The notes below the pieces were generated by a model. The model saw nothing but the letters and a program-made list of their open reading frames with translations. It was not told where the DNA came from and searched no databases. The translations under genes were made by a program, and so were the position numbers. This document shows, piece by piece, positions 8,556-17,704 of a stretch of 64,000 nucleotides of DNA. The DNA lies in assembly GCF_021310995.1 (NCBI RefSeq), contig NZ_CP054150.1, positions 186,001 through 250,000 on the forward strand, in the 5' to 3' direction. Every line of letters begins with the position of its first letter. Within the stretch, counting starts at the first letter, position 1. The stretch comes from Agrobacterium vaccinii (GTDB lineage Bacteria > Pseudomonadota > Alphaproteobacteria > Rhizobiales > Rhizobiaceae).

Positions 8556-10133
8556 ATGACCCAGATAGCCCATCCCGACAGCATCCTCATCATCGATTTC
8601 GGCAGCCAGGTGACGCAGCTTATTGCGCGCCGTGTTCGCGAAGCCGGAGTCTATTGCGAAATCCACCCGTTCCAGAATGCCGCAGAGGCATTCGAGAAGC
8701 TGGCGCCCAAAGGCGTCATCTTCTCCGGCGGCCCGGCATCGGTGACGGCAGAGGGCAGCCCGCGCGCACCGCAGGCGGTGTTTGATTCCGGCATCCCGAT
8801 CCTCGGCATTTGCTACGGCCAGCAGACGCTGTGCACCCAGCTGGGCGGCACGGTCGAAGGTGGTCACGCAGCGGAATTCGGTCGCGCCGATATAGAGATC
8901 AAGAAGGCAAGCCCGCTGTTTGACGGTTTCTGGGAACTGGGCGGACGTTACCCGGTGTGGATGAGCCATGGCGACCGCGTCACGCAATTGCCGCACGGCT
9001 TCGAAGTGGCCGCGACATCTGAAAACGCGCCCTTTGCCATCGCCGTCAACGAAGAGCGCCGTTATTACACCACGATGTTCCACCCGGAGGTCATGCACAC
9101 GCCTGACGGTGCCAAGCTGCTGTCCAACTTCGTGCACAAGATCGTTGGCCTGAAATCCGACTGGACCATGGCTGCCTACCGCGCCGAAATGATCCGCAAA
9201 ATCCGCGAGCAGGTGGGCACCGAGCGCGTCATCTGCGGACTGTCTGGTGGCGTCGATTCCTCCGTTGCTGCGGTTCTCATTCACGAAGCCATCGGCGATC
9301 AGCTGACTTGCATCTATGTCGACCACGGCATGATGCGTCTGGCCGAGAGCGAACAAGTCGTGACCATGTTCCGCGACCATTACAACATTCCACTGGTGCA
9401 TGTGGATGCGTCCGACCTGTTCCTGACGGAACTGGCTGGCGTGTCCGATCCGGAAGTCAAGCGCAAGACCATCGGTCGCCTGTTCATCGAAACATTCGAG
9501 GCTGAAGCTGCCAAGATCGCATCCGACGGCAAGGGCGCACCGGCATTTCTGGCGCAGGGCACGCTGTACCCCGACGTTATCGAGAGCGTGTCCTTCTCCG
9601 GTGGTCCATCCGTCACCATCAAGAGCCACCACAATGTCGGCGGTCTTCCAGAACGCATGAACATGAAGCTGGTGGAGCCGCTGCGCGAGCTATTCAAGGA
9701 CGAAGTGCGCGTGCTTGGCCGCGAACTCGGTCTGCCCGAAAGTTTCATCGGTCGCCACCCGTTCCCCGGTCCGGGTCTCGCCATCCGCTGCCCCGGCGTG
9801 GTGACGCGCGAAAAGCTCGATATTCTGCGCAAGGCCGATGCCATCTATCTCGACGAAATCCGCAAGGCCGGTCTCTACGACACCATCTGGCAGGCCTTTG
9901 CCGTGCTGCTACCGGTGCAAACCGTGGGCGTCATGGGCGATTACCGCACCTACGACTTTGTCTGCGCGCTGCGCGCCGTAACCTCGGTGGACGGCATGAC
10001 GGCGGATTTCTACCCTTACGACATGAACTTCCTTGGCCGCACCGCGACCCGTATCATCAACGAAGTCAAAGGCATCAACCGCGTGGTCTATGACGTAACG
10101 AGCAAGCCACCCGGTACGATCGAATGGGAATAA
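8556..10133 (+). CDS. guaA: GMP synthase (glutamine-hydrolysing)
   Basis: GuaA makes GMP from XMP, ATP and glutamine. The 525-residue protein has the class I glutamine amidotransferase domain with the nucleophile Cys86 in GICYGQQ and the His/Glu pair in MFHPEVMH. The ATP-pyrophosphatase P-loop GLSGGVDSS follows near residue 229, and the C-terminal dimerisation domain contains [10 protein letters not shown], the usual end of the protein. The length is normal. It stands alone, with a T-rich tail downstream. Confidence 0.97.
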
Positions 10134-10163: not shown

Positions 10164-10178
10164 GTTCTCATTTTGTTC
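10164..10178 (+). promoter_or_regulatory. LexA (SOS) box, GTTC-N7-GTTC
   Basis: GTTCTCATTTTGTTC matches the alphaproteobacterial LexA consensus GTTC-N7-GTTC exactly. It lies 62 bp before the chosen start of the 2H phosphoesterase and 30 bp after guaA, so it should control the downstream gene. Confidence 0.6.
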
Positions 10179-10240
10179 TTTTTATTTTTACTGATTGATG
10201 ATAGCTTTCTGGCCTTGGCATGAGGCCAGGGAGCATCACC

Positions 10241-10915
10241 ATGGGCGATAGTGCAGCATCAGCGGATCAGCCGCGGCAACTGTCTTTTGACTGGCTTGCG
10301 CCTCATTCCGTGACGGGCCATAACCGGCAGAAACTCAGCAAATTGTTGCTGATGACGAAACCACCCGGCGCTGTTTCTGAGACAATTTTCCGCGACGCTG
10401 AGAGACATGCTCTGGGCCGGACGACGCGGAGCGCTTATCCTGCCGAACTCCTACATGTCAGCTTGCTCTGTATTGGGGCATTTCAAACCCGTCCTGACAG
10501 GCTGATTGCGCACCTTGCCGCAGCGCTACGGGATTTTTCTGCGCGACCAATCCCCATGACCCTGGACACGGTAACTCACTTCGGAAATCGCAAGAGTCTT
10601 GCTTTGAAGAGTACGTCCGTGCTTCCTGAGATGACGTGCCTCACACAGATGCTGCAAGCGAGGTTGCGCTCGCACAGTGTGCCCTACGTATGCCAAAGCG
10701 CTTTCACGCCGCATGTGACAATCATTTACGGATGTGGGGAGATAGAAGCGATGCCAGTATCGAAGGCATATGGCTGGACTGTGAGCAACTTTGAGCTCGT
10801 CTTCAGTCACTACGGCGAGGCTCAGCATGAACAATGCGGACGGTGGCCCTTACGGGCTGAAAGCCGTGACTATCCGGCCATTGCCGAACAAATGAAATTC
10901 CCGCAGTGGCAATAA
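10241..10915 (+). CDS. 2H phosphoesterase / RNA 2',3'-cyclic phosphodiesterase (2'-5' RNA ligase family)
   Basis: This 224-residue protein carries the two HxTx-type motifs that define 2H phosphoesterases: HVSL in ELLHVSLLCIG and HVTI in FTPHVTIIYG. Such enzymes act on 2',3'-cyclic phosphate or 2'-5' linked ends of RNA. The ATG at 10241 follows AGGGAG at good spacing; an upstream in-frame ATG at 10220 lacks one. It is longer at the N terminus than the roughly 180-residue ThpR type. A LexA box stands upstream, which suggests DNA-damage control. The substrate is unknown. Confidence 0.8.
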   Translation: MGDSAASADQPRQLSFDWLAPHSVTGHNRQKLSKLLLMTKPPGAVSETIFRDAERHALGRTTRSAYPAELLHVSLLCIGAFQTRPDRLIAHLAAALRDFSARPIPMTLDTVTHFGNRKSLALKSTSVLPEMTCLTQMLQARLRSHSVPYVCQSAFTPHVTIIYGCGEIEAMPVSKAYGWTVSNFELVFSHYGEAQHEQCGRWPLRAESRDYPAIAEQMKFPQWQ

Positions 10916-11068: not shown

Positions 11069-11236
11069 TTAGAGCTGAACCTTGTCGAAAGCCTTGCGGT
11101 CGATGCCGAGGGCGTCGAGGTCTGCGCCTGCTGGCTTGCGGTGGGAACGGACAGCGGCGGATACTGCAAGAGCCGCACCGAAAACGGCAAAGGTTTCGCC
11201 AAAGAATTTACGGGATGTCTTAGCAACGTTACGCAT
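11069..11236 (-). CDS. Small protein with one hydrophobic segment, unknown function
   Basis: The product is 55 residues, beginning MRNVAKTSRKFFGE, with a hydrophobic stretch FAVFGAALAVSAAV that could be a single membrane helix and a charged tail containing DLDALGIDRKAF. The start has AGGAGA at correct spacing, and the gene is followed by two hairpins. These signals and a plausible basic N terminus favour a real gene over a chance frame. No family function is recognised. Confidence 0.6.
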   Translation of the reverse strand: MRNVAKTSRKFFGETFAVFGAALAVSAAVRSHRKPAGADLDALGIDRKAFDKVQL

Positions 11237-11432: not shown

Positions 11433-11780
11433 ATGACGGTTACGATTTACGGTATCAAGAACTGCGACACGATGAAGAAGGCCCGCAACTGGCTGGAAGC
11501 TGAGGGCATTGACTACACGTTTCATGATTATAAAAGCGCTGGGATTGATGCGGCCCATCTCAATGCCTGGTGCGATGCCGCCGGTTGGGAAACAGTGCTG
11601 AACCGCGCAGGCACCACCTTCAAGAAGCTGGATGAGGCCGATAAGGCTGACCTTACGCGCGAGAAGGCAATTGCGCTGATGTTGGCACAGCCTTCCATGA
11701 TCAAGCGTCCGGTTCTCCAGGCCAAGGGCAAGATCACGGTTGGCTTCAAGCCCGACACCTATGCGGCGCTGTTCGGTTAG
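11433..11780 (+). CDS. ArsC/Spx-family thiol reductase, YffB type
   Basis: This is a 115-residue thioredoxin-fold protein. IYGIKNCDTMKKARNWL gives the single N-terminal cysteine of the YffB subgroup of the arsenate reductase family, and MIKRPVL is the conserved later segment with the arginine. YffB proteins are thought to be glutathione-dependent thiol reductases rather than true arsenate reductases, and no ars genes are nearby. The start at 11433 is where family homology begins; the longer open frame from 11340 has no support. It is followed after 8 bp by the ybaK-like gene. Confidence 0.85.
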   Translation: MTVTIYGIKNCDTMKKARNWLEAEGIDYTFHDYKSAGIDAAHLNAWCDAAGWETVLNRAGTTFKKLDEADKADLTREKAIALMLAQPSMIKRPVLQAKGKITVGFKPDTYAALFG

Positions 11781-16064: not shown

Positions 16065-16079
16065 GTTCACTTCTTGTTC
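16065..16079 (+). promoter_or_regulatory. LexA (SOS) box upstream of comM
   Basis: GTTCACTTCTTGTTC fits the alphaproteobacterial GTTC-N7-GTTC LexA consensus. It overlaps a second dyad, AAGTGAA-ATTG-TTCACTT (16055-16072). It lies about 93 bp before the comM start. Confidence 0.6.
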
Positions 16080-16171: not shown

Positions 16172-17704
16172 ATGGTTGCGCGCGTCAATACAGTGGCATT
16201 TCAGGGTATAGAGGGCGTACCCGTCGAAGTTCAGGTCATGGTCGCACCCGGCAAGGTCGGCATGCAGATCGTCGGCCTGCCGGATAAAGCCGTGGCAGAA
16301 AGCCGGGAGCGAGTGCAAGCTGCTCTCCACGCCTCCGGGCTGGCGCTTCCCGCCAAAAAGGTCACCGTTAATCTCGCGCCCGCTGATTTGCCCAAAGAGG
16401 GCAGTCATTTTGATCTCCCAATTGCGCTCGGGCTGATGGCCGCTCTAGGCGCTATTCCGGCAGAAGCGCTGGATGCATATGTCGTTTTGGGTGAGCTCAA
16501 TCTGGATGGCACAATCGGTGCCGTGTCCGGGGCACTTCCCGCCGCCATCGGCGCGAATGCGCAGGGCAAGGGACTCATCTGCCCGGCAGATAGCGGCGGA
16601 GAAGCCGCATGGGCGGGTGCCGAGTTCGATATTCTCGCACCTCGCAGCCTGATTGCGCTTGCCAACCATTTTCGCGGCACCCAGCGCCTGTCACGCCCGC
16701 TTGCCGCAATCCGCGCCAATCCCGCAAACCTGCCTGATCTTGCCGATATCAAGGGGCAGGAAAGCGCCAAGCGCGCGCTGGAAGTGGCTGCCGCCGGTGG
16801 GCATAATCTCCTGATGGTCGGCCCGCCCGGTTCGGGAAAGTCCATGCTGGCCTCGCGGCTTCCCTCCATCCTGCCGCCGCTCTCGGCTGCGGAATTGCTG
16901 GAGGTTTCCATGGTCCATTCCATCGCCGGTCAACTCTCCGGCGGAAAGCTGTCGGATCGCCGTCCGTTCCGCACACCGCACCATTCCGCCACCATGGCAG
17001 CCCTCGTAGGTGGCGGCCTGCGCGCCAGACCGGGCGAGGCCTCACTTGCCCATCACGGTATTCTCTTTCTCGATGAGTTCCCGGAGTTTTCGCCGCAAGC
17101 CCTGGATGCGCTGCGACAACCGCTGGAAACTGGCGAATGCATCATCGCCCGTGCCAACCACCGTGTCAGTTACCCGGCGCAAATCCAGCTCGTTGCTGCC
17201 ATGAACCCTTGCAAATGCGGAATGGCAGGCGAACCCGGCTTCACTTGTGCCCGTGGCCCGCGCTGCGTGACGGATTATCAGCAACGGATTTCCGGCCCGC
17301 TGATGGACCGCATCGATATCCGCATAGAAGTTCCTGCCGTCTCGGCGGCGGACCTCATCCGCCCCATGGCCGCCGAAGCCAGCGCAGATGTTGCTATACG
17401 CGTGGCCCGCGCTCGTGAGCTGCAACAGGACCGTTTCGCCGCCGCAGGCTTCAACGGCATCCGCACCAACGCCCGCTGCTCCACGGCGCTGATCGAAAAA
17501 TTCGGTGAACCCGATGCCCCAGGCCTGCAACTGCTCCGCGACGCCGCCGAAAAACTGAAATTCTCCGCCCGAGGCTACCACCGCATCCTCAAAGTCGCAC
17601 GCACGCTGGCTGATCTGGACGACAAGGCTACCGTCACCCGCATTCACCTGGCGGAAGCGATTTCTTATCGGATAGCGGGGGAGCGACTGACGGCGGCGGC
17701 ATGA
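16172..17704 (+). CDS. comM: YifB/ComM family Mg-chelatase-like AAA+ ATPase
   Basis: The 510-residue protein has an N-terminal ChlI/Lon-like domain (VNTVAFQGIEGVPVEVQV onward) and a C-terminal AAA+ module with Walker A GPPGSGKSM and Walker B ILFLDEFPEF. A cysteine-rich segment (CKCGMAGEPGFTCARGPRC) follows. ComM acts as a branch-migration helicase in homologous recombination during natural transformation in other bacteria. The start at 16172 gives the conserved MVARVNTVAF N terminus. A LexA box in the promoter region suggests a DNA-damage role here, since no competence genes are nearby. Confidence 0.92.
   Translation: MVARVNTVAFQGIEGVPVEVQVMVAPGKVGMQIVGLPDKAVAESRERVQAALHASGLALPAKKVTVNLAPADLPKEGSHFDLPIALGLMAALGAIPAEALDAYVVLGELNLDGTIGAVSGALPAAIGANAQGKGLICPADSGGEAAWAGAEFDILAPRSLIALANHFRGTQRLSRPLAAIRANPANLPDLADIKGQESAKRALEVAAAGGHNLLMVGPPGSGKSMLASRLPSILPPLSAAELLEVSMVHSIAGQLSGGKLSDRRPFRTPHHSATMAALVGGGLRARPGEASLAHHGILFLDEFPEFSPQALDALRQPLETGECIIARANHRVSYPAQIQLVAAMNPCKCGMAGEPGFTCARGPRCVTDYQQRISGPLMDRIDIRIEVPAVSAADLIRPMAAEASADVAIRVARARELQQDRFAAAGFNGIRTNARCSTALIEKFGEPDAPGLQLLRDAAEKLKFSARGYHRILKVARTLADLDDKATVTRIHLAEAISYRIAGERLTAAA

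Follow-up and report, generated by a model that had tools for sequence, protein, structure and literature searches.

The window analyzed here, a 64,000-nucleotide stretch of Agrobacterium vaccinii DNA, contains a gene for a 224-residue two-histidine (2H) phosphoesterase at positions 10241..10915 of the forward strand, preceded by an exact match to the SOS box GTTC-N7-GTTC. Judging by the conservation of this operator, the gene is very probably under LexA/SOS control, and it appears to be a DNA-damage-response component that has so far gone undescribed. On balance, we lean toward a reading of the whole in which a LexA-repressed 2H phosphoesterase would work near the replication clamp. SOS regulons still contain conserved genes without known function, and the subfamily described here, which we call SOS-2H, has intact catalytic motifs, is preceded by an operator whose conservation reaches well outside the genus, and carries a peptide from which DnaN binding can be predicted. 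If right, the reading would connect the chemistry of two-histidine phosphoesterases with replication under damage, and a separate subfamily would lose the incorrect names that databases give it, 2'-5' RNA ligase and RNA 2',3'-cyclic phosphodiesterase.

Conservation of the predicted LexA box

The predicted LexA box, GTTCTCATTTTGTTC, occupies positions 10164..10178 of the forward strand, and 62 bp separate its end from the ATG at 10241; on both points the preliminary description of this DNA, which had placed an exact GTTC-N7-GTTC 62 bp before a 2H-type gene, was correct. The accessible text of PMC6237742 gives the same pattern as the SOS box of Caulobacter. A putative -10 element, GATAGC, was picked out by eye from the genus sequences at 10200..10205 (forward strand), and many genus relatives, also compared by eye, have GATAAT in its place. 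This GATAAT-like element lies about 20 bp past the box, which would place the -35 region partly within the box. A ribosome-binding-like GGAG follows at 10230..10233 on the same strand: GGAGC precedes 22 of the 23 genus starts listed, and the remaining one (L031) has GGAGT.

Taken by itself, the single box in the window proves nothing, since the pattern occurs three times in the 64 kb against an expectation of 1.86, and 32 of 100 shuffles reach three. In the whole genome, scanned over 4.87 Mb in three contigs, exact sites number 161 and matches to the reversed control pattern 113, so many of the exact genome sites are due to chance. What raises the box above the chance level is its conservation across relatives. 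The sample around the window comprised 61 genomes, 37 of them from the genus (the source genome included). The gene is present in 24 of the 37 and was not found in the other 13; one weak match (E 6.2e-4) lies elsewhere. The preliminary description had proposed looking for loss of the box in close relatives, and none was seen: an exact site stands within 400 bp upstream of the match in all 24 genus loci. In one genus relative (G031, loci L032/L034) the gene is split between two frames and the box is still intact. The 23 distinct genus sequences show 2.0 bits per column at the eight fixed letters of the box, 1.45 in the box interior and 0.25 over the 45 bp upstream. The possibility that the box belongs to the terminator of guaA, the upstream gene, was discarded, as the site is exact where guaA is not adjacent and the 45 bp upstream are so poorly conserved.

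Wider draws extend the pattern. In the family draw 52 of 394 genomes matched; 26 loci outside the genus were taken (23 further listed places without a locus were left out), and the exact box is present in 25 of 25, in stretches of 343 to 1153 bp, with L086 excluded as having no upstream sequence. The order and class draws gave matches in 249 of 397 and 132 of 385 genomes, most of them at low ThpR-like scores; within the high-scoring clade, 32 of 37 loci carry the exact box no more than 450 bp away (31 of 36 after removal of one duplicate). The phylum draw (111 of 398 genomes matching) added six alphaproteobacterial loci, three with an exact box. The total is 83 of the 91 alphaproteobacterial loci examined, eight being without an exact box; the relatives are not independent, so no probability is attached to this count. 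At the genome density of sites, simple arithmetic predicts about 1.4 boxes in 91 stretches of some 480 bp. The control clade of true ThpR genes has an exact box at none of its 19 loci, and the 1.8 kb surrounding the ThpR paralogue of the source genome contain no site with one mismatch or fewer.

The quality of the site was judged with a scoring matrix built only from 46 distinct lexA and recA sites. In each of the 22 genomes selected, lexA is preceded by an exact site no more than 450 bp away; recA is so in eight, and its site differs by one mismatch in the others. The window box scores 20.4 bits, close to the exact lexA box of the same genome (20.3), whereas the median of the 100 own-genome sites listed, out of 161, is 8.0; it takes rank 4 of those 100. 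The recA sites and the second lexA site of the genome score higher (22.7-23.1), but they are training sites. Sites of the same form in the genome precede an imuA/imuB-like pair (named by eye, imuA being without a Pfam match), dnaE, an AlkZ-like glycosylase and a UvrD-type helicase, with uvrA alongside. It is very improbable that the site arose by chance or serves a different regulator: the three window sites against 1.86 and the 113 reversed-pattern sites speak for such an explanation, whereas the matrix rank and the arithmetic expectation weigh against it, and conservation together with the empty ThpR control led us to reject a chance match. A gene is assigned to the SOS regulon by a GTTC-N7-GTTC operator that lies at its promoter and is shared by relatives, as is the case here, and the comparison strongly supports the LexA control that the preliminary description had predicted.

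Several other own-genome sites may be recorded. A second exact box in the window, GTTCACTTCTTGTTC at 16065-16079 (rank 18 of the 100 listed), lies 92 bp before a start at 16172, which we take from its sequence to be that of a ComM/YifB-like gene; a release-factor-3-like gene is near this box on the opposite strand. The top score of the 100 listed belongs to GTTCTTTTTTTGTTC, an exact box 36 bp before an AlkZ-like DNA glycosylase frame (L036, G000:C1:566141). Exact boxes also occur about 200 bp before a dnaE-type gene with PHP and Pol III alpha domains (L041, G000:C1:1208576) and some 325 bp from a CI-repressor-like gene with HTH and S24-peptidase domains (L038, G000:C1:641314).

Outside the alphaproteobacteria, an exact CTGT-N8-ACAG was seen at one of the eight best other-class loci of the phylum draw: L238 has CTGTATGGATGTACAG, an SOS box of the gamma/beta type, 148 bp before the match, and none of the remaining seven has an exact copy. 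This L238 box, TACTGTATGGATGTACAGTA, is of the gamma/beta type by its form and stands 5' of an SOS-2H gene from another class. Eight Paracoccus plasmid records with a homologue were found, and one of the five fetched has an exact box. Some genomes carry tandem SOS-2H genes (L199, L200 and also G642), the second starting 17 bp (L199) or 20 bp (L200) after the first.

Relation to ThpR and gene neighborhood

The start conserved in the genus is the ATG at 10241; another in-frame ATG lies at 10220, and the stop codon occupies 10913-10915. A match above the cut-off to PF13563 or PF02834 places a protein in the 2H superfamily, and this one exceeds both (2_5_RNA_ligase2, 36.6 bits with a cut-off of 27; LigT_PEase, 23.7 bits with a cut-off of 23.3). 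Of the two intact HxTx motifs previously reported, the second is confirmed as HVTI (residues 158-161, 10712..10723, forward strand), but the first is HVSL (residues 72-75, 10454..10465, forward strand), an HxSx motif; this is allowed by the family definition, His-X-Ser/Thr, in the accessible text of PMC5283653. His72 and His158 are invariant and Thr160 is present in at least 90% of 28 diverse sequences. The third residue of the first motif is Ser in 41, Thr in 16 and Ala in six of 63 SOS-2H proteins. The nearest proteins with named loci come from Agrobacterium rubi (90% identity) and A. rosae (81%), and each of the 15 loci with a name comes from a record of Agrobacterium or Rhizobium.

Databases call the relatives by the two names given above, and the preliminary description had likewise assigned the gene to the 2'-5' RNA ligase family, a name that proved to be wrong. 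The protein misses the NCBIfam cut-offs for ThpR (30.8 bits against 65.7 for TIGR02258; 28 against 184 for NF011704). A quick tree of 92 rows has a single branch, with SH-aLRT 100, that parts 73 SOS-2H rows from 19 ThpR rows, and a separate ThpR paralogue is encoded elsewhere in the same genome. The nearest solved structure by profile is the E. coli LigT/ThpR 5ldi (E 1.5e-17), whose Arg130 coordinates the product phosphate according to the accessible text of PMC5283653. Arg at this place marks ThpR, and here the residue is Tyr163 (10727..10729, forward strand); Arg is likewise replaced by Tyr in the profile alignment with 5ldi. Among 63 readable of 64 SOS-2H proteins the place is taken by Tyr in 50, Trp in five and Arg in four, whereas the 19 ThpR-clade proteins have Arg in 15, Tyr in three and Ser in one. 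SOS-2H further differs from LigT in its N-terminal extension, which LigT lacks, and from the ThpR clade in the LexA box, absent from 19 of 19 loci of that clade. As far as sequence comparison goes, the protein is a member of a 2H subfamily distinct from ThpR. That it should be an ordinary ThpR which happens to be SOS-regulated is scarcely credible: the database names favor it, and the TIGR02258 score, the fully supported branch and the true ThpR elsewhere in the genome rule it out.

The upstream gene (8556..10133, forward strand) we take from its sequence to be guaA. Of 92 loci, 18 have a guaA C-terminal signature no more than 1.5 kb upstream, and two of the 18 belong to other classes (L231, L237). 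Downstream, at 11433..11780 on the forward strand, lies a conserved neighbor that is presumably of the ArsC/YffB type, given its YGIKNCDT signature; this signature is present in 40 of 92 loci and downstream in 39 of them. The space between this neighbor and the 2H gene holds a 55-aa frame on the reverse strand (11069-11236), and DNA similar to its C-terminal end was noted by eye in several genus loci. A PADLOC search gave no match, and the gene was accordingly dropped as a defense-system candidate. A phage or plasmid origin was likewise rejected: the relative P0147, used as query, has no match in 50,697 phage records, and the only plasmid matches that P0045, P0147 and the window protein gave are in Paracoccus.

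The N-terminal peptide and possible mechanisms

Residues 13-18 of the window protein, QLSFDW (10277..10294, forward strand), resemble a clamp-binding motif, and Gln13 is invariant in the 18 genus sequences aligned. Most SOS-2H proteins have an extension ahead of the first strand, with peptides such as Q-L-S-L-D-L, Q-L-P-L-F and Q-L-S-L-P-G-F, and most relatives carry an N-terminal Q-x-x-[LF]-x-(G)-[LFW]. In their accessible parts, the sources give the clamp-binding consensus as QLxLF or QLxLxL (PMC4564189) and as Q-phi-x-[LM][FL] or Q-phi-x-[LM]-x-[FL] (PMC13254535). The latter, strict form is found in 11 of 61 sequences against 0.91 in shuffled extensions, and a broader form in 39 of 61 against 4.3, the 61 being 64 rows minus three with short or unreadable extensions. 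The pattern was widened to take in the G-containing form once the sequences had been seen, the first and narrower version having missed Q-x-x-L-x-G-F. With this form included, the motif occurs in 17 of 18 genus proteins (3.7 expected), 40 of 56 other alphaproteobacterial ones (5.6 expected), all nine best phylum-draw proteins (eight from other classes and one alphaproteobacterial; 1.5 expected) and 116 of 195 database proteins (18.7 expected). The ThpR clade has it in none of 15, 12 of which have no extension; these counts omit rows without a readable first motif (one alphaproteobacterial, three database and four ThpR).

The strict consensus is missed by the window QLSFDW and by all 18 genus rows; QLSFDW has aromatic residues where the strict form wants Leu/Met and Leu/Phe. 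Eleven of the 56 other alphaproteobacterial rows comply with it, against 0.74 expected. Database proteins do so in 13 of 223 cases against 3.5 expected; with 116 of 195 proteins matching the wide pattern, only a minority show the strict form. The box and the motif do not always go together: the box is present and the motif absent in L171, L172, L176, L182 and L199-L201, and the reverse is seen in L168 and L170, as well as in L194 with a doubtful match, QDALFF. From the enrichment over shuffles, docking of the peptide on the beta sliding clamp is a tentative proposal to which we give somewhat less than even weight. Clamp binding is a lead and not a result, because QLSFDW deviates and no genus row has the strict form. 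The clamp-motif-like N-terminus points toward DNA replication or repair rather than free RNA.

In the mechanism we propose, LexA would occupy the box over the promoter and repress the gene; upon DNA damage, RecA-driven cleavage of LexA would allow the enzyme to be made. The Q-x-x-[LF]-x-(G)-[LFW] peptide would then dock on the beta sliding clamp, placing the two-histidine chemistry at sites of replication or repair, where the enzyme might open 2',3'-cyclic-phosphate or related blocked ends. The family and the catalytic motifs are what suggest such ends as the substrate, and we hold this particular assignment to be doubtful.

The main rival among the alternatives is RNA-end repair, as the preliminary description had proposed, in which the SOS-induced enzyme would open RNA 2',3'-cyclic phosphates, for instance on tRNA halves produced by SOS-induced ribonucleases, for repair or degradation. 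We judge it rather unlikely. It draws on the 2H family and on the nearest structure, E. coli LigT/ThpR, which acts on 2',3'-cyclic mononucleotides (PMC5283653, accessible text), as well as on Salmonella, in which tRNA cleavage under mitomycin, with cyclic-phosphate ends, needs RecA and LexA cleavage in what could be consulted of PMC7790460 and PMC9879122. Yet the genome already possesses a boxless ThpR paralogue, 55 of the 63 SOS-2H proteins that could be read have Tyr or Trp in place of the Arg that coordinates the phosphate, and RNA-end repair would leave the conserved N-terminal peptide without a reason.

A narrower version of the clamp-associated reading, which we think improbable, has the tethered enzyme acting on DNA, opening 2',3'-cyclic-phosphate ends that derive from ribonucleotides left by error-prone SOS polymerases. 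Breakage at misinserted ribonucleotides would yield 2',3'-cyclic-phosphate ends that block extension and sealing. Such a substrate would fit because SOS polymerase V misincorporates ribonucleotides (PMC3493448, PMC3820734) and topoisomerase 1 cleavage at a ribonucleotide produces a 2',3'-cyclic-phosphate nick in yeast (PMC4176331), as the accessible portions of these papers describe. If true, it would mean a bacterial damage-response enzyme for ribonucleotide-derived DNA ends that is widespread in alphaproteobacteria; SOS-2H also occurs in other proteobacteria, mostly without a recognizable SOS box.

Degradation of a nucleotide signal (a cyclic or 2'-5' oligonucleotide, or ADP-ribose cyclic phosphate) during a damage or prophage response seems to us quite improbable. 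Other 2H enzymes do degrade 2'-5' oligoadenylates, by the accessible text of PMC8406329, and the patchy presence in the genus (24 of 37) would agree with such a role, but the missing PADLOC and phage matches count against it, as do the housekeeping neighbors, guaA and the yffB-like gene.

Comparison with known systems

Erill 2004 and da Rocha 2008 are said to list alphaproteobacterial LexA regulons. Our literature search found no LexA-controlled 2H/LigT gene in alphaproteobacteria; regulon tables and supplements were beyond its reach, and an earlier mention is possible. The word 'ligase' is absent from the text of the Caulobacter papers PMC13384398, PMC12700426 and PMC6237742. The preliminary description had known of no earlier account of a link between DNA damage and the repair of cyclic-phosphate RNA ends. 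In that general form the statement needs qualifying, because the Deinococcus ligT is damage-induced under another repressor and the Salmonella rtcBA genes offer a parallel by another route; what is left of it is the LexA-controlled alphaproteobacterial case, which was not found in the parts of the literature covered.

The accessible text of PMC5552922 and PMC8533742 describes a LigT-family gene of Deinococcus in the damage operon cinA-ligT-recA, within the DdrO/IrrE regulon. It resembles the window gene in that a LigT-family gene is tied to DNA damage, a likeness at the level of the LigT family. Unlike the window gene, the Deinococcus ligT is controlled by DdrO through an RDRM operator and shares an operon with recA. 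Salmonella is described in the accessible text of PMC9879122 and PMC7790460 as having SOS-dependent RNA repair via rtcBA, whose damage-induced RNA-end enzymes are the closest parallel on that side. The control of rtcBA is different: RtcR and sigma54 respond to RNA ends, and LexA cleavage acts only indirectly. The enzymes also differ, RtcB being a ligase and RtcA a cyclase.

The clamp-associated phosphoesterase that we favor would have its other counterpart in the beta-clamp-binding proteins, with motifs QL[S/D]LF and QLxLxL in the accessible parts of PMC4564189, PMC9690074 and PMC13254535. A number of SOS-2H relatives share with them a short peptide of the Q-L-x-L-x-[LF] type, whereas the QLSFDW of the window protein and the frequent QLSLPGF of SOS-2H depart from the strict consensus.
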